Source: Rhizoclosmatium globosum
Taxonomy: Eukaryota > Chytridiomycota > Chytridiomycetes > Chytridiales > Chytriomycetaceae
Length of the DNA: 64,000 nucleotides
Reading direction: 5' to 3'
NCBI GenBank assembly: GCA_002104985.1
Contig: MCGO01000209.1
Location: forward strand, 1-64,000
In this document: positions 1-17,158 of the stretch, piece by piece
Layout: each line of letters begins with the position of its first letter
Position numbering within the stretch: position 1 is the first letter of the stretch
The notes under the pieces: generated by a model
Seen by the model: the letters and a program-made list of their open reading frames with translations, nothing else
Told to the model about the DNA's origin: nothing
Database searches by the model: none
Translations under genes and position numbers: made by a program

Positions 1-3000
1 CGAGCGATATTTGCGGCTGAGACTTCTTGCAGACTAATCAGCTTAGATTCAAATGTGTTGGTTACGTCTGCCAAACGTTCCTCCGCGGCCTTTTTAGTTT
101 CGGCTAAAGCGATTTCAGCTTTTTCATTATGCTCAACTAATTTGCTTTCCAGTTCTGTTTTCGTTTGCGCCAATTCGGCGGCGATTGATTCCACTAATTG
201 CTGTTTCTGTTCCACTTCATTCTTCAGTTTAGCTTCTTCGGCCATTGTTTGTTTCATACGAGATACTTCGGCTTTGGCCTCAACGAGTTTTGCTTCTGAT
301 TCCTTCTTTGTATTATGAATTTCGACTTTCAAGACTTCTGCTTCAGTTACACTCGCTTGAAGCACCACATTTACGCGTTCTATGTCTTCTTCTTTCTTTT
401 GAACAGTTTCCGTCATTTGGGTCTTAATAGTTTCAATCAAGGCTTGCGCTTCTGAGAGTGCACACTGTGTTGTCCATAGCGTTGCGTCCAATTCAAGTTT
501 CGCAGCCTCCAGCTCAAGATACTTTGCTTCTTTGTCGGCAAGCTTCTGTTTGGCTTCTTCGTTGAACTGCTCCGTAAGCTGGACATGTTTTTCTAACTCT
601 GAGATTCGAAGTTTATACTCCTCAATTAAAGCCTTCTTTGCCTCTTCCTTGTACATTTCTAGCTTTTTGGCGATCGGTATGGGCTTATCTTTTTCTTCAT
701 CAATTTGATCATCCTCGATGAATCCACCTGAAACATTTTCTCATCTTCTCCGTCGATTACAGTATCTGAGAACTTCTTTTTCTTCACAGATGTAGAAGTT
801 ACTCCCCTATAAGAGTCTATCCAACCATTTTTGATTTTGACTGAATCAGTCGAGAAGAGGAATCGTCTAACTTTTGAAACAGCACTGGAACCTCCAGCAG
901 GAACTACTTCGATTTCAAACATGGGTCCTGGTTGATCGTTGTCCTCTACAATGTCGCATATGCGACAATGTCTGAGGGTTAAATTGATCCAGAAGACGGA
1001 AATTTAGATTGCCAATCTTTTCTGGCTACAATCAGTAAATCATTGAAGAAGAACAGTTTTCTGGCTTTCTTGCTGTCTCCTCGAATGAGATTAAAATTGT
1101 CTTCACGTACGAGATACCGAGTAGGTGTTATAATGTTCAATTTCTAAGTTGTTCATCAATATCGTTGAATTATCAGGCATTTCTCACCTCAGTAAAAGAA
1201 TTTTGAACTTCAACCATTTTACGAACACCTTCAGCTGCTTTTGCTCCGTCATTTACTTGAGCTATAATGGCCTGAACAGTTTCTAAGGCCAGCGCCAAAA
1301 TTGGGTATTCACGATGATCTTCATTGTATTTTTTATGATTTCCTATTCAAGTCACTTGAGATGAATATCATGCTCATCAAACTTCACCCACCTTCAACAG
1401 CAGAGGATATTTACAAATTCTCTGAACAGGTTTGATGAGGAAGCCACCAAGGTCAAGTTGACGTGTGACAGGATTTTTGCAGTATCCTTTGGAATGGTTA
1501 ATTGTATATTTGACAAGACAACCCACTACACTCCAAAAACATTCGAAAGCCGCGATTTGTTTGAACAAGATTTTGAAGCTTGCTGAGTGCAACAGAATGA
1601 TTCGCGCAGTAGAGTGAGTATTTTGTGAACTTCTCACCCTGAATGTATTGGTATAAGTAAACGTGTTATTGAAGATATACATATCAAACCAGTTCAAGGA
1701 AGATCTCGCCAACACCATGAAACGAGCTCGGTTGTTGCTTCATTTTAGTTTCAAAGGCTTTTAGAAAGTCCTGAATATGTCAAGTTAGCGACTGCTTTCT
1801 AAATGGCCCCACGTACTGAGTTTATAGATAATAGTTCGTCTACATTGGAGAATAAAACATCCACATTTTTGCTGAATTTTGAATCTGCCATTGGTCGCAT
1901 GAAATTTTCAATGATAATCTTGAGATACGAACATAATCTTTCTCTGTTTCGACCAACTCGAAAATGATTTTCATTCGTTTCTTTTCTTTTTCGTCCATAG
2001 CCTCCATTTGCTCTGGTGTCAACCCGTCACTCCACTGTCCAGCTGGGCTATCGGAATCCGTTATCCGAATTGCAAGGCTGGAGCGAGAACCATCAACCAA
2101 TGGAAGAGCCCATTTATTTCCAGACTTTGAAACTCGGTCAGAATCGGTTTGTGACAATGATCGCACGTGCGATTGTTTGAACATTGACCAGCGACTCTCA
2201 GGCCGTTCCAAACTTGGTAAAACATCAGACATTCGACCCATAGTAGCAGGAGTTGGAAAAGGAGACGAAGGGGTTAAGCGGCTTCGGTCTTCTTCTTCTT
2301 CCTCTTCAGGTTCATCTTTTAACGGGCGTCAAGTTCGCTGCTGTCTTTGCAGATGTTGGTGGCATTGACACTGAACGCGCATGACGGCTTTTTTTAGGTA
2401 CAGCAAGCTTCTTGTCATCATCTGGGGTTGTTTCGTTTGATTTTGGATCGTTCACTTCATCTCTGGATACTGCTTCATCCGGTGTCATAAATTCCCGATC
2501 AGATGCATTATCCGGCAAAACATCATCAGGAGGCAATGATCCTTCACTAATATCGTGACCAGCCGGCGAATGTTGAAAAGGCTCGCTTCCTCCAATTGAT
2601 GGAATCACGGAGACCCTTTCAATTGCATCCTCAACATTTTGATCGGCATCAAAATTGCTGACTACAGAATCCTTAGTCTGACTATCAGTGGGAGGCTTAT
2701 TTGCTGAAGAATCCAGCGAAAATTTACGGTGTATCGGGGTGGGACTTGTGTTTCCAACCAAAGATGGATCAGATTTCACTCTGTGAGCAGATGCTACCTC
2801 GGAGTCCAAGAATATACTTCTAGAGAGCTCATTTTTAGTAGATTCTATGGGAGTTTCGTTTGATATAGTGTCATCTGGCTGCTCTGGAGGAGTTACTTCG
2901 ACAGTGGAAGGTTCGTCTGTATGTTCAGCAGCAGGTGTTTCACTTTTAGGCTCGGATGGCACCGGAACAGACGGGCTTTCGTTAAGTACAGGAACTTCAA

Positions 3001-4169
3001 CCACGGGATTCACTTTTTGGTTCGTATTTTGGTGGTTGGAGACCATCCTGGAATACTCTCACCAGGAGCCAAAGTAACAAGTGTTGACGGAAACCAGCCA
3101 GACTTCGGGGTCTTCGTGCTAAAACCTTTCATTCCACGCCACCACCCACCTTCCGGAGCCTCCAGAACGACCACAACATCTCCAACTTCGATTTCGAGTT
3201 CATCGGCTTTTGATCGTTCGAATGGGTATATACAGACCAACTAAATGATAAAAAACGTAAGATATTGGCGCGATATAATCAAACACATACTTTGATTCCA
3301 GGTTTAACTGTTGCAGGGAGGTCGGACGCGACTTCTTCTTCAATCCATTCATCCAGGCTCGTTTCTTGACCAGTTGCACCAACGGGTGTGAGTCCTTCTG
3401 GAACTTGAACAAGAACAGGAACCGTAACCGGAACAGTGGGTTCCTCAAACGTTTCCAATACTACACACTCTGCCGGAAAGAATCCCTTCGATCCATTATT
3501 TGGACCCCAAGCTCGATTGATTCCATACCACCAGAACTCTTTATCTGATGCTGGTTTTTCCAGTAACTCGACAATATCGCCCACTTCCAACGAGAGTTCA
3601 GTATCTTCATTCGCCTTGTGTTCTTTGACACAGCGATATTCCTTCGGCTCAGCTTTCTTTTCCACTTCTGCAGGTTTTGCATCAATGTTAGCGACTGCTG
3701 CTTCGGGTAGAGGCTTTCGAAGCCGTAAATTTGTTGCACTAGCGGAAGTGTCAGTTTTCGGGGAAGTTCCAAGTTGATTTGGACTTGTAGAACGATCTGA
3801 GTTTGGAGATGTTGCGCCCGATGCTGCTGAAGTTGGAGACGCGGCAGAGCTTGGCGATGATGGACTGAGAAAGTCTGGTGAAGTTGTCGGACCTGTGGCT
3901 CCCATTGGCCTGAGGTCCATCGGCCGACTGATCGCATCGACCGTCAAAGGACTCTTTCCTCTCTTCCTTCCCCTGCTAGGCGATGATGATGTAGGGCTCG
4001 GGGAACGTGAGAATCTTGATAATGACAAGCCCAAGCTGAACTTTTTCTTTTCAGAGCCAACGCGAGATCGCGATACGGCTTCGCTTCGTGTTGAACTAGT
4101 GATACCTGGCTCCAGCTTTGAGAGAGCTTCTTTCAGATCATAGTTGGATCCAAAGCCGTCTGAATCCAT
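1..4169 (-). CDS. SH3-SH3-DH-PH Rho guanine nucleotide exchange factor, 3' end outside window
   Basis: Predicted to activate Rho-family GTPases at the cortex. The start is the ATG at 4169. Residues 1-170 are Ser/Pro-rich. A first SH3 domain lies at about residues 178-240 (EYRCVKEHK to GFFPAECVVL). After a short intron near 3240-3290 comes a second SH3 (VCIYPFERSKADELEIEVGD, GGWWRGMKG, SGWFPSTLV). A Ser/Thr/Pro-rich linker follows at 2312-3046. The DH domain begins near 2000 (FELVETEKDYVR) and carries the signature KPVQRICKYPLLLK near 1400. The PH domain is at about 780-1140 (KARKLFFFNDLLIVARKDW). From about 720 to base 1 the frame is open as a Lys/Glu-rich coiled coil that continues beyond the window. 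The frame needs one-base corrections near 998, 1922, 2317 and 3014, all in or beside short homopolymers. The domain call is secure; exact exon ends are not. Confidence 0.85.
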
Positions 4170-4255
4170 ATTTGTTTTTCTGGTAGAGAATTGTCACTCC
4201 CAACAATGACCTGAACAAAGGAGTATGCATCACTTTATTTGCAGAAAATACGACG

Positions 4256-7200
4256 CTAAATATTAACAGTAATGGATGTATCGTCTGCGTGATCAGTATC
4301 CTCATGATGCTGCACGTACAGTGGCAAGGCGTTCATATGAGCTCGTCCAAGAATCATAAAGTCATCTGAATATATATCGTATCAATCAAATGCTGCATTT
4401 ATAATAGATTATGATACTTACCAAAGAGCTTGAATCCATGATGCAGGTTGGAAATCTCCTTCAAATCAACTTTTTTCACATCCTTCAAATGCTCCCAAAC
4501 AACTTTTTTTGAAATTCCAGGACCCGTGATATCCAAGATATTCTCTCGTTCCTTAAGATACTCCAGCGAACTCTCCAAAATAATTGTAACCACGCGTTTG
4601 ATGAGCAGGTGCATAAACTCGTGCCGAGGAGCTGAAACAATCGTCCACTGATTTGTAGAGTCTTTGTCAACAAAGTTATGTTCTACTCCGAAAACAACGT
4701 TAACTCCTCGTTGTCCATAGAACCACTTTTCGATGGGTACGTGACAAGATGTGTCCATATCCGTATAGACCCCTCCAAAAGCGTACAACATCAGATAACG
4801 TGTCAAATCAGCGCGTAGTACAACAAAGGGGAGCCTGAAATAAGCCTCCACAATTTTATCGTTGAACGTTCCTCGCACAAAGCGGTCACTGTCGTCGTCA
4901 TTCCAAATAAGTTGATAATGATTTGGATTCATTTCGTCCCAAGATGTGAACCATGCCCATTGCCGTTCGTCAAAAGTTTTGTTTGCTGATCCTTCTTGGA
5001 TTTCTAGGCGATTGCTCGTTTTATACGTGCGCAAGACTTGATTCGGAACAAAAATTCCATCTGACGTTGCGATATTTTTTGGTTTTGGACGATAAATATC
5101 AAGCGGTGTGATTGACACGTCAAAAACTTTAGGTGTTTCACGGATAATGTTCGTTGGAGCGATCAAATTGCTTCGAAGAAACACGTCCTCATGCTGAACG
5201 GAAAAGACGGCATTGTTTCCGTCTTGCTGGAAGTGTGATGCACCGTGTACCAAAATAGAACCTGATCAACACAAATAAGATATTTAATTGTGTGTGCAAA
5301 GAGAACATACCATAAGTAACGTGACCAATTTTAAACTTTCGAAGAGAGGCAGTAGCTCTCCTTGTCACGATCGTCAATTGCTTCAGAAGGATGTCGTTCC
5401 AAATATTATCGACAAGATTAGGATCGGCATCTAACTCAGCTCCTTTCTTTCCAAGTACAACTGCAGTTATCTGCTGAATAACTCTGTCCATCAACTCATG
5501 CCGAGGAATACTCGCAAGTGTGTAAGGCACGAACCGAATCGCTTTGGAATCTTCCAAAACCCCAACAACGATTTCAACCCCTTCTCTTCTGATCCATACA
5601 TCAATCTCACTTTCACAGCTCACATCCATATCTACATAAATACCTCCAAAGTGATAAAGCATCAAGTACTTTATCAGTTGGCGCCGCTGTGAAACTAAAC
5701 CCAATCGGAAATAGGCGTCTGCCACCTTACCACCATAAATGCCACGCACAAATCTATCCGCATCCTCCTCGCTCAATAATATAGTGGTGTAGTTAGTATT
5801 TTGAGAGTCCCATGAAAGCATCCAGTTGTGTCGATCTTGGTGATCAACACCAGATACCGAGTCGTTAAGAATAGATCGACGATCACTGGTTATATGCGTT
5901 CGAAGGATATATTTTGGTATTCCCTGGGGATTTCGAAAGTGCTCTGAGGGAAGCTCCACTTTCGGTATAGTTGAATTGTCAGCAGGTTCGATTGATTTAA
6001 TGTCGAAGGCTGGATTCTGGTTTCTCCATCCATCTTTCCCGAAGCCTGTTAAATGATGGAGAAGAAAGTATGGAGCGGGCTTGAAATGTGCTTTCCCAAG
6101 AATCATAAATCCATCTATATAACCGACATGAGCGGAATGTAAACACTTCAAAGTATGTCTTACCAATCACAATATTAGAGCTTTGCATCTCAGATATTTG
6201 CTTCCATGGGTCGCTTGCAGCTAATTGCTTTAGAATATATGTCTTTACGACATGTGTGAGCATTCCATGCTTCAGTACATCATCCAGTGTCTCGTCACTC
6301 GCCAGCTCTTTTTCAGATTTATCATGCAGCAATTGAACTATTCCTTCAATTACTTTCGCAATGAACCTGTGCCCTGGCATAGCCCCAACAACATGACTGC
6401 TAATACGATCTTCATTTTCCAGTCCAACAACGACATCCACACCCTTCATACCTTCAAGCCACATATCAAACATGGTATGGCAAGAGGTATCCATATCGGC
6501 GTAGATTCCACCAAAGACATACAACAACAGGAACCGTGAAAACAGGGGACGAGAAGCAACAGGAAGCTTGAAGTACGTTTCTTCAACAACTTTCGAAAAC
6601 GTTCCACGAACAAGACGATCACGATCTTCCAGATCAAAAATCAAGTGCTGATGGCCTTTGTTTTGGGATTCCCACGATTTAAACCATTTCCAGCGATCCC
6701 TTGTAATATGCGATGTTCCATTTTGCGACGCCGCCTTAATTTCAACACGGCGTTTCGTGTCCCAAGTGCGTAAGATTTGATAAGGCATAATTATACCTAA
6801 AAACTCTTTTGTGTCTTTGGCTGTTGGACGAAAGATTCCAATATCGTCTGCAACTGAGACGATATCATTTAGTTTTACATCTGGATTACGTTGATTCAGT
6901 CTATTGATGTAATCATTGGTGTAGACAGCCAGAGCAGTTTTGAATCCGGGATTAAAATGTGCTGAACCGAGAATGAGAACGTCTTTGAAGACCAAGTGAC
7001 CTGTTGCCGATAACGATTTGATGTCTGTCTCAACAGTCTCAGAAGACGTTATTTTCTGAAGATATTCAATCAAATGCGCCGAAAATAAATCGGGAATAAG
7101 GTCTGGTATGACGTTCATGATAGAGTCATCCATCTTCAAGATTTTTACTGTTGCACTCGTTAGAAATGATTCGAGTAAAGGATGTCGAGGAACAGATGCA

Positions 7201-7860
7201 ACAGTTCTAATTGAGAACCGAATTCGCTCGTCTTCGTTGACGGTCTAATCGTAAGAACACGTGGTTAAAGACAAAAATCAAGGGGAAGTAACAGACTCAC
7301 GTCCAATCCAACAATAAACCTGATTCTTTTTCGTCCCAAATCCCATTTATCAACAGGAGTCGTGCATTTGGTTCTCATATCTGCAAAGACGCCTCCAAAG
7401 TGCCGCAGCATCAGAAATTGGGTATATTCTCGGCGCTGTCGGACATAGGGCAGCTTGTAGTACGTGGAAGATACTTCCCATCCATATGAGCCTTTAATCA
7501 AGCGTAAAGAATCTTTCTTGTCGTCAAATAAAATCTGAATGTGGGTGGGATTGACAGATTCCCAAGATTTGAACCAGTTGTACCGATCCTTGTGGTCTAG
7601 ACCACTCTGGACTTCGTATTGAATTTGTTCTCGATCTGCAGTTGAGTGAATGTGGAGAATGAGTCGAGGGATAGCGCCAGAATTCTGAAGAATAGGGCCA
7701 ATGTGAAAAGGCCTTGACAGATTCGATTCAGATGAGAGCCGACCCAGAATACTTCCACCTGATGATGAATCTGAGTTTGAAAGATGTGATGGCTTCTTTT
7801 GTTGATTTGGGTTAGGATGGTTGTGGTTGCCGTGGTTGTCCTTTTTAGCAAGCTAAAAGC
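4256..7860 (-). CDS. Four-domain GT32 (DXD) glycosyltransferase polyprotein, copy 1; 5' exon uncertain
   Basis: Encodes four consecutive GT32/OCH1-like sugar-transferase domains, expected to act in the Golgi lumen using nucleotide-sugar donors and a metal ion. Each domain has a WF.SW segment, an R.V/I.G segment and the core FGG(I/V)Y.DMD.SC. Domains 2, 3 and 4 carry intact D-M-D (near 6490, 5630 and 4755). Domain 1 reads A-D-M-R (near 7380). Domain 2 ends with the family's HH...W tail, and the protein ends with a shortened version (YVQHHED) before the stop at 4256-4258. Introns at the domain 2/3, 3/4 and 4/tail boundaries are all phase 1. The domain 4 exon (4422-5261) is exactly 280 codons. 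At the 5' end the frame meets a stop near 7853 just after a plausible acceptor, so the membrane-anchor exon is missing or distant (see 11853-12140). About 70% similar by eye to copy 2. Confidence 0.85.
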
Positions 7861-8279
7861 TAGAGGTGGTTTTTCTCCGTCCGGCCGTGTAGGCACCCAC
7901 TTCAAACCCCGCCAAGGTCACTTTGCAAAGTCACGTGATGACTCATTTCCAATAACACATTCTTATTGGAATCATCATTGACTAACAAAAAACATAACAA
8001 ACGTCATAAAAACAAAATAGCAGCCAAATACAGAGAAACTTTAGTGCAACAATTTCTTCCATGTCCAAAGTGTGCCAGATTGCTGGAGAAATGTATGAAT
8101 ACAGGTAGGGAGATTTTTCTGATGAGATGAACGTTAGCATCCACAAACTGTCAAACTACAAACATTTGTTCTTGGAGGGATGTGTTGCCCACGCCTCCAG
8201 CACCTGTTTGGAGTTTAGGCCATTTTGTTGGACAAAGATTTTGGACCATGTGTTGACGTTGTTGCCTTCTAGGTAAAGC
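7861..8279. other. Intergenic or intronic DNA, no gene seen
   Basis: No convincing coding frame. This lies where the 5' exon and promoter of GT32 copy 1 would be expected. It contains no hydrophobic anchor frame comparable with that of copy 2. Confidence 0.5.
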
Positions 8280-8803
8280 AGGAGAAAAGCGAAGCTCTCC
8301 CTCGCTTTTCGATTCCGCGATTTGGAGTCACTTTTCAGTTTTGCGATTCGATTTCGCAATTCACCACCAAGACCGCTAAGAAGCAGAACACTAAGAAGGA
8401 GCAATTTGAAACCTCAACTCTGACCCTCCTTGTCAACAGGTTTTGAACCACCACTTTTCAAAAGGTTGAAACATCACTTTTCAAACACCCCAATCTTCGC
8501 AGCAAACATTGGGGCATTTGAAAAGCTCAGTTTCATCATTTTGAAAAGCGGCGGTTTGAAACCGTCGGAAAGGGATGGTCAGAGTTGCGGTTTCAAACCA
8601 CGGCCTCTTGAGGTTTTTGTCATAGCAGATTAGGTTGTGAAAAGCAAAATCGAATCGCAAAACTCAAACGCGGCTCCCAAAAGCAAAATTGAAAAGCGAG
8701 GGAGAGGTTCTCTTTTGGGTTCAAAAAGAGGATTTTGGCTATTTCAAAACTTCGCTTTTCACACTTTTGAAAATTGTCCAAAACACCCAACTTTGACCAC
8801 CCC
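8280..8803. repeat. Foldback (inverted-repeat) element, copy A
   Basis: An imperfect palindrome. Arm 8285-8460 reads roughly as the reverse complement of 8540-8760, including repeated CCCTCGCTTTTC / GAAAAGCGAGGG words. The right end, ACTTTGACCACCCC at 8790-8803, is followed by TA and matches the terminal repeat of copy B. The left terminus is degraded. Short open frames inside are by-products of the repeat. Confidence 0.75.
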
Positions 8804-8805
8804 TA

Positions 8806-10445
8806 AGGCTGTTGCATTATACTCCATGGAACAACTAACCAATCAAGTAATTCAGGAGCCTCTTCTCATTTGGCAGAATCTCAATGGACTGTCCACTCTT
8901 TTTTGCATTAGAACCAAGCTCTTTCAAGCCAAGTGACATGAGAATGTCTATCAAAGGTGGTGACAGAATACGACAAGAGACACCTGAAGGAGAAGTGCCG
9001 TCAATTAAAACTAAAAGAAAACATAAGCCTACAAACAATGCAAGAATGCTAATGATCAGCTCTTGTATCCAGCTGTGTCTGTCTCAGGTTTTGAGGTTGG
9101 TGCAACAACAGGCTCGAACTCTAGAACAAATTTCACTGAGACAAGGAGCTTTGATTTTTGACGTGGTTATTTCAAGTTTATATTGTGGATGTTGGTTTTG
9201 GTGATCCATCTTGATGTGGAGGAGTAGCATCAGCGATAGAAGCACTACATCCGGGATTGGGTCATCTGAAGCTTGAGTAATTTTAGTGTCTGATTCTGCT
9301 GGTGATTTTGTTTCCTCTGCGTCAAAGGAACTAATGTTGTCCTTATAGCTGGTGCCATATCTTCCAAGAGCTATTGTGCGTTTTGTCCAAAATTGGAGTT
9401 TCAAACTCTTACAGTCATTTCATTCTTTTGCCTTCCTGCGAAACCTTCTCCCTCTTCCAACATGGACCTGTACCACATCATTCAGCCAAAATGTAGAGCT
9501 ATCTATTGGTATAGCGCATGGCTGCTAGCAGGTGCAGATCTGGTTTTGGCAGAGCAACACAGTAGTGAATCAATCCTCCGAAGAACTCCAAACTTGCAGC
9601 TTCCCAGCTGTACAGGCCAGCGCTGGAATGCGTTAACATTGCCAAAGGGCAGGAGACCACATGGTCCAAGTGCTTGGTGTTTAATGTCAACACAAATGTT
9701 GAACCATCAGCTTATCTCCGTACCTATTTCCAATATATGTCAATTATTGGATTTCACAGATTTACAAACCTTTCTATTTTTCCTTTAAGGGGAGGACTCC
9801 TTCAGTCTCTTGTGGGCAAAGGAAATTGTTTTCATAGGCATTCAACTCCTTATAGCCTTAATTCAGAAACTTTCAATAGATATAACTATCTTATTGCAAA
9901 AGTGTAAGTATGGTTTGCAATAATATTGAATTCTACCTGATCACTTATGTTCACATTGTCAAAAGCCATCTGGACTCTAAGTACAGTATCCAGTACGTCA
10001 TTCAAAGAAGAATCAACAGTGCGACAACCTCACCCAGCAGCAGTTGTGGACCTGAAAATCCCAATTATTAAAATCAACAGCATGAAAGTACGAAGGAAAC
10101 TGCACCATTGTAGGACAAAGCTGGGGGCAGTTGATCCAGGAGAGTTGTAATTCTTTAGGCAGCTGTAACGCTGACTGGTGGCTGAATAGCCACAACACGC
10201 TGACTTGAGTGGACATACGTTTTCGAAGCTTGAACTATCGGAACTTGATGGACAGGTTCAACAGGAATGGTGCAGTCATCATGATCTTTGCTGGCAAAAG
10301 ACTATTTTGAAAGATTGGGCTGAGCGATGGCATCAATGTGGAAAGGGTCCGTAGAATGCGACATGAATCCTTTGGATGGGTCAGAAATAGGTCCAGCATT
10401 TGTTTTTGATTCCTTTGAAGTGGAGGCTAAATGATCTGCAGCTAT
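8806..10445. other. Gene-poor stretch between two foldback repeats
   Basis: Only short, overlapping frames on both strands, none with a recognisable domain. It could be a degraded transposable element or intergenic DNA that accumulated between the repeats. I see no transposase motif. Confidence 0.5.
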
Positions 10446-10447
10446 TA

Positions 10448-10890
10448 GGGGTGGTCAAAGTTGGGTATTTTGGACTATTTTCAAAAGTGCGAAAAGCAAA
10501 GTTTTGAAATGGCCAAAATCCCCTTTTCGAACCCAAAAGAGAACCTCTCCCTCGCTTTTCAATTCCGCTTTTGGGAGCCGCTTAGAGTCTTGCGATTGGA
10601 TTTTGCTTTTCACCACCCAATCCGCTATGACAAAACACCTCAAGAGGCAATGGTTTGAAACCGCAACTCTGACCCTCCCTATCTACAGGTTTCAAACCAC
10701 CGCTTTTCAAGATGATGAAACTTTGCTAAGCACAGTGATTGTGGATGCGAGAAGTACGAGAGCTTGTGTTGCTCGTCCATGGGCGACAATGTATTCATCC
10801 CATAGGAGGCACAGCTTTTGGGCCAGTGTGAGTTCGTTGAAGAAAACGTCGATGTATTCCTTGTCTGTCCTATTCCACTTTGACCACCCC
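10448..10890. mobile_element. MITE-like foldback element, copy B, with 14-bp terminal inverted repeats
   Basis: Starts with GGGGTGGTCAAAGT (10448-10461) and ends with its exact reverse complement (10877-10890). It is flanked on both sides by TA (10446-10447 and 10891-10892), as expected for a Tc1/mariner-type target. Bases 10448-10720 match the inverted arm of copy A at 8440-8803. The inner right half is unlike copy A. There is no transposase, so it is non-autonomous. Confidence 0.75.
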
Positions 10891-11025
10891 TATTTTTGAC
10901 ACAGCTATATGTGACTTGCGAAAGTTGCCCTTTCCTTCACAACCAATACTAAACACCTCAACAAGTACAATAAAATCTCCTGAAAGACACATTAATTAAA
11001 GTAATCCTTAATACTACCACTCACA

Positions 11026-11463
11026 TTACACACTCCTCCATAAAAAGCTAACCCTAAGACTTGTGTTGTCATTGATTTTAAGCTTCTCAGTAATTGTGTC
11101 AATGTGGTTAATTGTGTTTTTAACACTTTTGGAGGCAGTGTCAAGTTTTGCACAAGTAGTAGCATTACGACAATTCTTCAGATTGGAACCTCTTTTTGGA
11201 GGATAGGTACATTTAGTCTCCACATTTATCCCATACCATTTCTGGTATAAAGCCCGATTTGAAAAATTTAGGAAGTCCAATAATTTAAAGGTATTGGATT
11301 TCACAAAGCTAATACATACCATATGTTCAAGAATACTTTCTGTGAATTTCTTTGCCACCTCCGTAATGTCCACAACTGCCAGTTTGACAGCCAATTCTGC
11401 CTCCATATCCATCATACTAACAAGCATTTTGTTTTCAGCCAATCCAGTTACTTTCTCTAACAC
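11026..11463 (-). CDS. Hypothetical protein or degraded exon
   Basis: An open frame of 145 codons. It has a helical, hydrophobic N-terminal half and a Cys/Lys-rich part (ETKCTYPPKRGSNLKNCRN) without a family I recognise. A possible splice donor lies in the middle. It may be a fragment of a larger element, since the neighbouring DNA is repeat-rich. Existence as a gene is uncertain. Confidence 0.2.
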   Translation of the reverse strand: MLEKVTGLAENKMLVSMMDMEAELAVKLAVVDITEVAKKFTESILEHMVCISFVKSNTFKLLDFLNFSNRALYQKWYGINVETKCTYPPKRGSNLKNCRNATTCAKLDTASKSVKNTINHIDTITEKLKINDNTSLRVSFLWRSV

Positions 11464-11852
11464 TTTGATACACTAGCAAGAGTGGTTGGTCAGCAACTCT
11501 GTTGTTTAACCATCAGTTAATTGATTGAAAGATCAAAATACTCACCAATCTTGGAGTCTCCTCATCTTCTCTCTTCTATTCTTCTGCTTCCTTGTCTGCT
11601 GCCTGGTCATTGATGTTTCTGTGTGAAGGAACCCCATCACCCTCCCTTGACACACTCCCGCTTGCTTGATTAGTGTTGTTGTTCATTGCACTAGAGGTAT
11701 TGTACGTCATTGACGCTTGCAGGGACTTTGATGTGCTGTTTGTTCACTGGGGATGATGTGCCTGGTGTCTGTGCTTAATCCAATAAAACAATTCTCTTAT
11801 TTCATACACAAAAAAGCAAGCTAAAAAGGTCCTAGCGGCGGCACGACGCACC

Positions 11853-12140
11853 TCAGTCTGCTCGGACAAGGGCTTCCTCCGAGTCCGAGTCGACGACATT
11901 CGCGTTTGAGTCGTCATCGCTTTCGTCGTATTGAATGTGCGCCACTTTGTTCGGCGGAGAAAGTTTTGCGGCGAACGAGGCGGACGGCGCCGGCTTTTCT
12001 TGGCCGAGACGCGGTACAACTGAGGCAACGGAGAACGCCGGTCCGTGCGCCGCGTGTTGCAGATATCGGTACACAAGAATGAATACTGCAAAGCTTATCA
12101 GTGCTGCGAGTCGTCGGTATTTGCGCGAGGTCAGGAACAT
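11853..12140 (-). pseudogene. Orphan signal-anchor exon resembling the 5' exon of the GT32 genes
   Basis: An ATG at 12140 opens a frame starting MFLTSRKYRRLAALISFAVF, a basic stretch then a hydrophobic helix. The intact GT32 copy 2 starts with MSNIRRFRRLGAVLAALILI. Both have the pattern R-[KR]-[YF]-R-R-L before the membrane helix. An acidic/Ser-rich stalk follows, then a stop and a donor-like GAG|GTGCGT at about 11849. The exon sits directly between the 3' end of copy 2 and the rest of copy 1. The natural reading is that it is the first exon of copy 1, now 4 kb away because of inserted repeat DNA. It could instead be a separate small type II membrane protein. Confidence 0.5.
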
Positions 12141-12248
12141 GCAGGCCTGGCTTTTTAGTGGTGGGTTTTTTGTGGTTTGAACCCACACTCCTCAGACTTC
12201 AAAATAAACTGTTTATTGGTCATGGTGGAGAACCAAAATGCTTCTTTG

Positions 12249-15200
12249 CTATGTGGATTCAGTGATAGGATCTTCAAAATCTTCATGATGCTGGACATAT
12301 TGTGGTAAGGCATTCATATGTGCTCGTCCCAAAACCATAAAGTCATCTAAGCCTCAGAATTAAATAAACAAGAAATATGCAAACTAGAAAGTATTCTCAC
12401 CATATAGCGTAAATCCGTGATGCAGATTTGCCATATCCCTTAAATTCCCTTTCTTCACATCGCGCACATAATCCCAAACAACACGTTTGAAAATTCCTGG
12501 ACCTGTGATATCCAAGATGTTTTCCTTATCAGACAAAAACTCTACGCTGCTCTCCAAAATCACCGTCACGACACGCTGAATCACCAGCTGCATGAAATCG
12601 TGTCTAGGAGATGACACAATCGTCCACTGATTGGTTGAATCCTTGTCACCGAAATTATGTTCAACACCAACAATAACGTTGACACCTTTCTGTCCTTGAA
12701 ACCATTTCTCAATCGGGACGTGGCACGATGTATCCATATCTGTATAAACACCTCCCAACGCGTAAAGCATCAGATAACGCGTCAAATCAGCACGCAATAC
12801 AACTCGTGGCAGTCTGAAATATGCTTCCGAAATCTTTTCGTTGAACGTTCCTCGTACGAATCGGTCGCTATCTTCATCATTCCACAACAGTTGATAATGG
12901 TTCGGATTGACTTCGTCCCAAGATTGGAACCAAGACCACTGGCGTTCATCAAAAGTTTTGTTTACGGACCCTTCTTGAAGTTCAAGGCGGTTGCTAGTCT
13001 TATAAGTTCGCAGAACTTGATTTGGGACTAAAATGCCATCAGATTTCGCCTCATTTTTGGGTTTAGGGCGATAGATATCGAGAGAAGTGGTTACTTGCTC
13101 GGCAGCATATCGAATAAGTGTCGTTGAGTTGACGGCATTGCTTCGAACAAATACATCTCCATGTTGAATTGAAAGTACAGAGCCCTTTTGAGTAGGCTGA
13201 AAGTGTGAGGAACCAAGAAATAAAACACCATCTGTCAATAACGTTTGTTAGTAACTTGAACCAAATGTATAAGACTCACCAATGGTAACGTGTCCAGTCT
13301 TAAGTTTCTTGAGGTTATCAATTGCTTTCTTGTCCGTACTTGAAATATGCTTCAACAACATATCATTCCAAATATTGTCAACAAGATTCGCATCAGAATC
13401 CAACTCATCTTCTGTCTTTCCCAATACAGTAATCACAATCTTTTGAATCGCTGCATCGAATAGTTCGTGTCTTGGGACACTCGCCAAAGTGTGTGCTACA
13501 AAACGAACATCCTTTTTACCACCATCTTCAACTCCAACAACAATCTGCACACCTTTCTCGCTGCCAATCCAACTATCAATACCACTTTCGCAGCTCACAT
13601 CCATATCCACATAGACGCCGCCAAAGTGATAAATCATGAGATACTTGATCATTTGTCGTCGTTGCGACACAAGGCCCAAACGGAAATACGCATCCGCAAC
13701 TTTGCCACCATAGATACCTCGCACAAATCGTCCAGCGTCTTCATCGCTCAATAGAATAGTAGTATGATTCAAATTGTGTGAGTCCCAAGACTGGATCCAG
13801 TCATATCGATTCTTGTGATCAAGACCAGCTGTAACCGCATCCAAAATAGAGCGCCTGTCACTAGTCACATGAGTGCGGAGAATATAGTTGGGAATGCCGG
13901 TCGGGTTTCTGAGGTGTTCATCGGGAAGTACAACTTTTGGTTTTTTGATAACACTGTCATCTTCGTGAGGTTTGTTTTCTTTGACGTCGAAAACCGGTTT
14001 CTGGTTTCTCCAGCCGCTTTTACTGAAACCTGTAAGATGGTGAAGGAGATAGTATGGTGCGGGTTTGAAATGCGCTTTTCCAACAACCAAAAAGCCATCT
14101 GATAGAATATGTTAGGTAAAGCTGAGACAGGCGGGGTATTGCTGGCCTTACCAATCAATTTGTTTGACGACGACATGCTCGAAATCTCTGACCAATTAGG
14201 TCGAGGACTCTTCACTGTCTCGAGGTATTCCTTCACTACATCTGTAAACATTCCGTTCCCCAAGACTTTGTCATGAATACCCTCCGCTGCCAAATCCAAC
14301 TCACTCATTCCCGAAATAAGTGCCACAATTCGACGAATAACACCAGCAATAAACTCATGACCAGGCATAGCACCAATAGTATACGCATTAATCCTTTTGT
14401 TTCCCTCTACACCCACGAGCACATCAACACCGCTCTTGTGGTTCAACCAAAGCTCAAACTGAGACTGACAAGACGTATCCATGTCCGCGTAGATTCCTCC
14501 AAACTCATAAAGCATCAGAAAACGCGCGAACAAAGGCCGCAAATCAGAAGGAACTTTGAAATACGCCGCCGAAACATCTTTAGTGAAAGTACCACGAACA
14601 AGCCGCTCTTGATCAGCTGGATCGAAAATGATACTCAAATGGTTGTTGTTCTTCTCTTCCCACGATTGGAACCACGCCCAGCGGTTTTTCGCTAGATAAG
14701 ACGTCGCATTAAGAGACGATTGCTCAATTTCGACTCTTCGCTTGGTCGGCCAAGTGCGCAAGATTTGGTAAGGCATAATGAATCCCATGAACTCTGTTGT
14801 GTCCTTTGCAGTTGGACGAAAGATCCCAATGTTATCTGAAACACCGACCACATCATTGAGTTTTACGTCTTCGTTGCGGTTATTGAGCCTGTTGACATAA
14901 TCTTCATTGAAGATTGAAAGAGCGGATTTTGAGTTTGCATCAAAGTAGCCAGATCCAAGAATGAGGATATCCTTGTAAACAATGTGCCCACTCGCTGATA
15001 ATGCCTTCAACTCAGTGGTAACATTTCCTGCATTGGAAGTTTTGCGGATGTGGTCTAGAAGGTGAGTCGCAAACAGGTTTTGAATCAGGTCCGGCTCCTT
15101 ATCCATTTCTGCATCCTTCATCTTCAAAATTTTGACGGTTATACTTGTGAGGAACTTGTCAAGAAACGGATGCCTTGAAACAGACGCGACTGTGTGAGTA

Positions 15201-16188
15201 ATAAAGCGAACAGCCTTGGAACTGACGGAATTCTTTCCACAAGGGAGTAAGCAACCATCTGCACATAAAATAAAGAACTCACCTCGACTCCAACAATGAG
15301 TTTGATTCCTTTCAACCCCAAATCCCATTCATCAATCGGCTTAACGCAGCTTCCCCTCATATCCGCAAAGACGCCTCCAAAATGCCTCAACATCAGAAAC
15401 TGCACGTACTCTCTACGTTGACGCAAGTATGGAAGCTTGTAATACGTTGAAGAGACCTCCCATCCATAAGCACCCTTCACCAATCGCCTAGACTCCTCTA
15501 CATCATCAATCAGAATCTGAATGTGATTCGGATTCACAGTATCCCACGATTTAAACCAATTGTATCGATCCCTATTGTCTAGTCCATCTTGCGCTTCGTG
15601 TTGAAGTAGTTGCTGGTCAGAGGTATGGTGGATGCGAAGAATGTGTCTAGGTATCGAGTCTCGAGGCTTTTGCACAATAGACACGCTATCATCGAATATC
15701 TTGGAAGCGGCTTTTGTAGGCTCCTTGTTTGTCTTTGATGTGCCAGGTGCTGGCTTATTTGTGGGTGACACCACTGCTGCGTCATCCGCTTGACCTTTTT
15801 GATCAAGACCAGACTGTTTCTCCTTTGGTTTTGATACTTTATCGTTTGCAGGTTTTGGTGGTTTTACCGGCTTTGGAGCAGCAATCTTCTTGTCGTTGAG
15901 AGATGTAGTCTTTCCTTTTGATCCCAAACCATTCTTTTGTTGATCATGTACCAACGATGCAACCGTCAAAGTAGGAGAAATAGTTGATGACGGCAATGCT
16001 TTCGCTTTTTGAGGAGGCGGGACAGCTTCTTTTTGGCCGCCATTGTTGGAAACTTCAACTTGTTTGGCATCGACAGGAGGACGAGGCAGGTCTTGAGGCC
16101 CATCAGATCGTGTCGACAGATAGAGAATGATGAGAATTAGGGCCGCAAGGACAGCCCCTAACCGCCGAAATCGTCGAATGTTCGACAT
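12249..16188 (-). CDS. Four-domain GT32 (DXD) glycosyltransferase polyprotein, copy 2, intact
   Basis: Type II Golgi-type protein. The ATG at 16188 is followed by a basic stretch and a membrane helix (about residues 10-28), then a Pro/Lys-rich stem of about 150 residues. Four GT32 domains follow. Domain 1 has the degenerate core F-A-D-M-R (near 15355). Domains 2, 3 and 4 have Y-A/V/T-D-M-D (near 14485, 13600 and 12740). A Cys three residues after the motif is present in all four. Introns: one in domain 1 after VGVE (phase 0, about 15215-15282). Three more at the domain 2/3, 3/4 and 4/tail boundaries are all phase 1; the 3/4 intron shows a TACTAAC branch site. Stop at 12249-12251. Donor sugar and acceptor cannot be told from sequence; OCH1-like mannosyltransfer is the nearest known role. 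Confidence 0.9.
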
Positions 16189-16265
16189 TGTGATTGAGTG
16201 CAACTTTTCTGTTCCATAATAATGCCAGCCATTGTCATCTGTCTGTGGCTTTCAAAATTACGATT

Positions 16266-17158
16266 TTATTCAGTTGGATTATATTCTTCATCGTCTTCTC
16301 CTTCTCCGAGCTGTTAAAATCGTTGTTAGTGGATCACACGATTTTGAACGTGAATCTGAAATACCTGTTGAGCAGCCATTCCACCTCTTAAGGGGCTCAC
16401 ACCCGCAGCAGCGGCAGCGGACGGGTGCGTACTTGAATCTTCGCGTGGAACAATATCTAATGGCTGTTAAGTGTGTGGAATCAAATCCAAATTCAAACTC
16501 ACCGATTAAAAAGTCATACATGTCAAGACGACTCAAAGCTGCAGCAACATCTGATTTCTAGAGACATGTAATATGAGACTTTGGATCAACCAATGCCGCG
16601 TTAATGTACCTGCAAAGTTCTGCGTTTGTTTTCCTCAGTGTGGACCCACGACCGCAGCGTCAGTTCGAGAATGAAGAATTCGCATGCTTTTGCGAACAGA
16701 ATTGGCACTTCAGCTGAGATCATCTGCGAGAAAGGGTTGAGATTAGGACGGCAAAGTTCCTGAGAGACAAGGGCGATTCGAGGCATCGTCAACATGAGCA
16801 CACTTGATGAAAGATTGTATAGAACCATTGTTTACGTATGGTTTAACCGTTTTGGTAGTGCAGTGTCATATGGTAGGATCGGGGCCGTCAACCAATCAAC
16901 TTACGCACCATATTCTTTGCATCATCGTCCAGCTTCATGACCTTCTTGATACGAGCCAGGGGAAGTTGATGGAACCGCCAGTCGTGCGAACCGTCAATCT
17001 CAAGCATATCAAGTTGCTGTTTAACCCTACGAAGGCGTTAGTAGGACACCAGTAGCTCTGAGGACCCACCAAAATGCGTCAATAACTTCTGCGATACTGT
17101 TTCCAGCTGGAGCGTTGGCCTGTGTTCCTGACGCGGAAGCTGCGAGAGGGTTGGACAT
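16266..17158 (-). CDS. HAP5: NF-YC / HAP5 subunit of the CCAAT-binding factor
   Basis: Histone-fold subunit of the heterotrimeric CCAAT-binding transcription factor. The start is [10 protein letters not shown] at 17158. The fold is spread over several short exons: [93 protein letters not shown]. These match the family core almost residue for residue. The last exon ends in an acidic [14 protein letters not shown] and stops at 16266-16268. It is divergently oriented to the F-box gene, sharing a spacer of about 130 bp. Confidence 0.93.

Follow-up and report, generated by a model that had tools for sequence, protein, structure and literature searches.

A tandem pair of four-domain GT32 genes in the chytrid Rhizoclosmatium globosum, with one canonical and three degenerate domains per array

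Two neighboring genes of the chytrid Rhizoclosmatium globosum (Chytridiomycota, Chytriomycetaceae), here called A and B, each carry an array of four domains of glycosyltransferase family 32 (GT32), the family of the initiation-specific alpha-1,6-mannosyltransferase Och1. Both lie on the minus strand of a stretch of 64,000 nucleotides, which we call the window (positions 1 to 64,000 of MCGO01000209.1, part of the contig labeled C123 here, in the 57 Mb assembly GCA_002104985.1). Judging from donor-site residues and domain phylogeny, we favor the view that A and B each join a single canonical domain, probably an active and retaining one of GT-A type, to degenerate GT32 domains, and that the array arose through duplication of a two-domain unit. 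The variant is real and, within this otherwise known family of enzymes, apparently undescribed.

Results

A profile search with the Pfam family Gly_transf_sug (PF04488) returned eight minus-strand matches, spread over 4720-7576 and 12693-15555, with bit scores of 54.5, 52, 44.3, 38.9, 36.5, 33.8, 26.2 and 26, so that all eight domains of the window exceed the curated cut-off of 23 bits. Gene B (12249..16188, minus strand) is an intact four-domain gene. Its ATG lies at 16188 and its stop ends at 12249, and removal of four introns (15233-15282, 14099-14151, 13232-13279 and 12347-12400) yields a single chain of 1244 aa, laid out as a hydrophobic N-terminal stretch, a linker, and then four GT32-like domains. 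The hydrophobic stretch, LGAVLAALILIILYLSTRS (16105..16161, minus strand), is probably a type II membrane anchor, with a 19-residue Kyte-Doolittle mean of 1.97 that is the maximum of the whole chain. Our splice model predates our discovery of the recorded R. globosum protein P0002 (BCR33DRAFT_854536), a hypothetical protein of 1243 aa with four PF04488 stretches at 131.9 bits; the two agree, with 98% identity between P0002 and gene B. A second region of the assembly, C364:246500-256400 (L009), aligns with window positions 2983-7840 at 98.0% and 11856-16920 at 97.3%, and we take this copy to be the other haplotype. Gene B shows no frameshift or out-of-frame coding change on either assembled haplotype, and it is the sole gene of the pair that is intact in both.

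The donor-site residues of the eight domains were read by comparison with Och1, for which the accessible part of the structure paper (PMC12312940) gives T103, D139, D171, R174, Q263 and H463, together with the DXD motif D187-M188-D189, as likely donor-site residues. A profile of domains 3-4 aligns with the Och1 structure 9n3s over 106 positions inside domain 4 (E 8.3e-11), and this match, with an offset of 49, set the Och1 numbering. Six positions were counted in an alignment of 43 domains: D171, R174, Y185, D187, D189 and Q263. Y185 is our own addition to the positions named in the paper; T103 and D139, which differ even between domains that carry the full six, were left out of the count, and H463 was unmapped. 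The table rows for gene B were read on the allelic protein P0002, with which the window letters agree for gene B domain 1.

Domain 4 has 6/6 counted residues in both genes and is a canonical GT32 domain, located at 4268..5103 in gene A and at 12252..13082 in gene B, where it carries RADLTRY...YTDMD, NQWTI and TGPG and is the site of the 9n3s match. Domains 1-3 of both genes are without the D171 and Q263 equivalents, and among them R174 is retained in domain 2 only. Domain 1 (6879..7726 in A, 14867..15696 in B) is degenerate even in its DXD motif, which reads DMR for DMD (motif ADMR); at the six positions it has E for D171, Q for R174, F for Y185, then D, R and a residue other than Gln. D171 is replaced by L in domain 2 (6014..6842 in A, 13995..14827 in B) and by Q in domain 3 (5152..5980 in A, 13122..13952 in B), which also has K for R174, and both of these domains, like domain 4, retain DMD. 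A previous sequence-only reading of this DNA had described four complete GT32/DXD domains per gene. The eight GT32-like domains are present where they were placed, but completeness does not extend to domain 1, with its ADMR, or to domains 2 and 3, which lack other donor-site residues.

Multidomain GT32 proteins of other chytrids show a comparable division. Exactly one domain has all six residues in each of the 17 multidomain proteins tabulated, which comprise the products of four R. globosum genes (RgA, RgB as P0002, RgC and RgE) and 13 recorded proteins from R. hyalinum, Obelidium mucronatum, Entophlyctis luteolus, Chytriomyces sp. MP71, C. confervae, C. hyalinus and Physocladia obscura. The 21 partner domains retain D171 in 1 case, R174 in 6, Y185 in 9, D187 in 15, D189 in 15 and Q263 in 3. 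Among further rows outside the 17, P0009, P0010, P0011 and the sole full domain of P0022 have 6/6, while P0012 is without Q263. P0019 and P0021, in which GT32 models are fused to a transporter, are untabulated, pieces of P0022 under 150 aa were excluded, which leaves one P0022 domain in the table, and the R. globosum genes D, F and G enter no count (F and G are known as open frames alone). Nor is the design an isolated one, as several chytrid genera have on record two-domain GT32 proteins, each a single protein that combines a canonical with a degenerate domain. On the criterion of two or more GT32 domains with exactly one of them canonical, A and B belong to a chytrid tandem GT32 group, which we propose here from these alignments. 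NCBIfam gave no family for three of the proteins, and two short peptide patterns run against each of viral_contigs and genome_contigs, a weak test, found no relative there.

The domain order seen in A and B recurs in P0013 (Physocladia obscura) and P0014 (Entophlyctis luteolus), where a degenerate domain is followed by a canonical one, although these proteins have two domains and not four. Their first domains share 37% (P0013) and 29-32% (P0014) identity with domain 3, and their second domains 44-47% with domain 4; each of the two is recorded under the automatic name 'membrane-bound alpha-1,6-mannosyltransferase Initiation-specific'. In P0003-P0008, P0015-P0018, P0020 and genes C and E, one canonical and one degenerate domain are likewise combined, but the order is reversed, with the canonical domain first.

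Same-number domains of A and B are 60, 60, 63 and 79% identical (domains 1, 2, 3 and 4), compared with 24-38% between domains inside one gene, a difference that had already been noticed from the letters. The tree of individual domains that had been suggested as a check (42 domains, LG+C20+F+G4; P0012 is in the table but excluded here) pairs the domains of A and B by number, 1-1, 2-2, 3-3 and 4-4, all at 100/100. Domains 1 and 3 of both genes form a clade (97/95) that adjoins the first domains of P0013 and P0014 (89/78, not starred), where the first domain of P0014 sits on a long branch and its placement is unsure; domains 2 and 4 cluster with the second domains of the same two proteins (95/93). 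Approximately unbiased (AU) tests reject a single clade of the four A domains (p-AU 1.4e-38), one that unites all eight domains of A and B (p 0.00015), and the groupings 1+2 (p 0.0105) and 3+4 (p 1e-7), and they do not reject a clade of 2+4 alone (p 0.241). With a single clade of all eight rejected, we also reject stepwise duplication of one domain in place. By-number pairing, matching introns and the rejected A-domain clade together uphold the earlier proposal that the array is older than the gene duplication.

Since the closest relatives found, P0013 and P0014, are two-domain proteins with a degenerate and then a canonical domain, the array most likely originated when a two-domain unit was duplicated in tandem before the A/B gene duplication. 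The ancestor would have had two domains, degenerate then canonical, and this unit would have been duplicated in tandem inside the gene. The new second domain would then have lost its donor-site residues, and a later duplication of the whole gene would have given rise to A and B.

Gene A is interrupted in the window haplotype and is not an intact gene here. Its ATG at 12140, 108 bases beyond the gene B stop, opens an N-terminal anchor exon (MFLTSRKYRRLAALISFAVFILVY... LVRAD; 11856..12140, minus strand) of 95 codons, which is followed by a TGA just within a multicopy insertion of about 4015 bp (7841..11855) in the coding part of exon 1. The remainder of the gene (4256..7840, minus strand) encodes the four GT32 domains in one frame after splicing, 1124 aa in all, and has no Met before domain 1; the first downstream Met is in the middle of that domain. 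Its four introns (7245-7300, 6115-6163, 5262-5310 and 4366-4421) are at positions matching the four of gene B. The insertion, which parts the anchor exon from the domains, is accompanied by a 3-bp duplication (GTC) and is missing from the allelic contig C364, where the anchor exon runs directly and in frame into domain 1. Elsewhere in the genome, a query of 8000-11700 found at least five copies of about 3 kb or longer at 95-96%, plus many partial ones. The interior of the insertion contains inverted repeats (137 nt, 93%), no inverted repeat links its two ends among the repeats listed, and it holds no open frame above 160 aa. The idea that each gene makes one chain therefore holds for gene B, with its 1244 aa, but not for gene A in the window, which is split by the 4015-bp insertion and its immediate stop. 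On C364, gene A carries two single-base coding deletions. Compared with the window, the adjoining SH3-domain gene (2983-4169) has three single-base deletions on C364, along with one single-base insertion at 3014, and because this gene is also hit by single-base deletions on C364, decay of gene A and assembly error cannot be told apart.

Other GT32 loci are scattered through the same genome. The two-domain gene C (C221/C346, 678 aa) and the two-domain genes D and E on C334 (E 523 aa; D from open frames only) have the canonical domain first and the degenerate domain second. At L016 (C334:697000-705000), two divergent two-domain GT32 genes flank a transporter-like gene; PF07690 and PF04488 occur in one protein in P0019 (R. 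hyalinum) and P0021 (Rhizoclosmatium sp. JEL0117), possibly through gene-model fusion. C46 has two further two-domain loci known as frames only, and at the two-domain GT32 locus L014:757-2826 on that contig the frame apparently shifts twice, reflecting either a pseudogene or assembly errors. Two more contig regions, C410:329500-345000 (L010/L011) and C23 (L012/L013), look allelic from paired hits, and the C410 side is a tandem run of apparent single-domain genes from another GT32 subfamily, which we take to be A4GALT-like. The domain profile from this work gave no match at any of the four loci L010-L013, and the C410/C23 array was rejected as a second multidomain gene, as the C410 frames look like separate single-domain genes.

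Discussion

Domain 4 of A and B resembles Och1 (PDB 9N3S) in having equivalents of D171, R174, D187-M-D189 and, by motif, Q263, and the hydrophobic, probably membrane-anchoring N-terminus is likewise shared. The residue comparison covers the donor site, and Och1 has a single domain in its structure compared with four here, three of them degenerate. If our favored view is correct, the N-terminal helix would, given its hydrophobic character, anchor the chain in a Golgi-type membrane, and domain 4 would transfer sugar, by analogy mannose from GDP-mannose. Domains 1-3 would have been retained to hold or position the glycan, serving as a scaffold or as modules that bind the acceptor, much as has been proposed for the non-catalytic partners of other polymerases.

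Such partnerships are described, in the available portions of PMC12748766 and PMC9675754, for the CHSY3-CHPF chondroitin and EXT1-EXT2 heparan sulfate polymerases, in which a working glycosyltransferase has as its partner a subunit or domain related to it and reported to be inactive. A stabilising role is proposed for CHPF in CHSY3-CHPF (PMC12748766), and the pseudo-domain of EXT2 is a glycosyltransferase relative reported as inactive (PMC9675754). These polymerases differ from A and B in belonging to other glycosyltransferase families, in being built from separate heterodimer subunits, and in serving animal pathways. A 2026 survey (PMC13161914) reports, in its accessible sections, unannotated Och1-like GT32 homologues in Chytridiomycota; those sections make no mention of tandem domains. 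The term GT32 is absent from the accessible text of PMC8778642, and no description of a tandem GT32 enzyme was found in the open-access literature searched, insofar as its text was available, which agrees with the sequence-only reading that no GT32 enzyme of this design is known to have been described.

Several considerations count against the view that a single domain is canonical and the others are helpers. Loss of residues is no proof of inactivity, and domains 2 and 3, which keep the DXD motif, could possibly bind nucleotide sugars or have an altered activity; both DXD aspartates are likewise retained in 11 of the 21 partner domains. The Och1 donor-site assignments are partly based on modeling, according to the part of PMC12312940 at hand, and the Q263 equivalence was drawn by eye from the QWTI motif, outside the significant Och1 match. 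'Canonical' is itself defined through the very residues counted. The 17 proteins, being related by descent and representing just a few subtypes, are not independent cases. With regard to the origin of the array, the AU groupings were picked post hoc from the tree, a selection that the test does not account for. As to how far the four-domain form is conserved beyond A and B, no second four-domain protein was present among the 7997 best word-sharing candidates in a search limited to proteins of 684-2177 aa.

The retained DXD motifs also give rise to the rival account that we take most seriously, a partly degenerate multi-site enzyme in which domain 1 is dead while domains 2 and 3 transfer with altered donor or acceptor preference, so that two or three sites would work in sequence. 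Tyr185 is intact along with the DXD motif in domains 2 and 3 of both genes, and comparison of the two paralogues suggests constraint on all four domains. Even so, both domains are without D171 and Q263, and domain 3 without R174 as well, whereas one domain in each of the 17 proteins has the full set; moreover, in P0014 the first domain, which is related to domains 1 and 3, is missing the initial aspartate of the DXD motif too. We therefore regard this account as possible but unlikely.

Our favored view, one canonical domain with degenerate partners, can be extended to a chytrid-specific glycan polymerase in which one active GT32 site is fused to pseudo-GT32 modules that both grip the chain and measure it as it grows. 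In its four-domain form, such an enzyme would combine three acceptor-binding modules with a single C-terminal active site and would processively make a long, mannan-like polymer. We offer this extension tentatively, and think it rather unlikely.

That the locus is decaying, with the array a functionless relic, is suggested by gene A, which is visibly broken by the 4-kb insertion in the window and has the two single-base coding deletions on C364. Some of those deletions may be assembly errors given that the SH3-domain gene has them as well, and gene B is free of frameshifts on both haplotypes. The ratio of nonsynonymous to synonymous substitution rates (dN/dS, NG86) between A and B is 0.10, 0.136, 0.089 and 0.08 for domains 1-4, although dS is saturated at 1.7-3.2, which makes the estimate of selection rough, supports a qualitative point only and tempers our own reading of the domains as well. 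For the linker, which is 20% identical across 45 alignable codons, dN/dS is 1.18. Qualitatively, it stands that the degenerate domains do not evolve like unconstrained sequence, and we consider a functionless relic very improbable.

The sequence-only reading had raised the possibility of a glycan synthase that acts processively or sequentially, here taken to mean four working GT32 sites in each chain. Four GT32 domains do share one chain, and tandem catalytic repeats increase efficiency in the norcoclaurine synthases of Papaveraceae, whose chains carry a single kind of catalytic domain in two to five tandem-fused copies (PMC5171800, in its available part). That family is unrelated, however, and its catalytic efficiency correlates with the number of domains, whereas most domains here are without donor-site residues. 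Domain 1 has no DXD motif in either gene, the full residue set occurs in domain 4 only, and three of the four domains in each chain are without donor-site residues that one domain keeps in each of the 17 proteins. On the residue table we reject eight working active sites, and we give this proposal hardly any credence. A gene-model artefact, with four separate genes in place of one polyprotein, is just as improbable and is rejected in view of continuous frames and the recorded gene model: a single open exon covers the latter half of domain 1 together with domain 2 as far as the last intron in domain 2, the remaining junctions are short frame-keeping introns, the strongest hydrophobic stretch is N-terminal, the recorded model yields the same chain (recorded models being predictions too), and in several genera the homologues with two domains are on record as single proteins.

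Overall, these proteins point to an apparently undescribed chytrid group whose members retain a canonical GT32 domain beside degenerate copies of it, in both orders, and they illustrate that the number of domains does not equal the number of active sites. Should the degenerate domains prove to bind acceptor glycan, this group would provide an example of a pseudo-enzyme module recruited, within one chain, for the control of chain length or specificity. With two-domain forms in several genera and a four-domain form in R. globosum, the role of each added module is testable by truncation.

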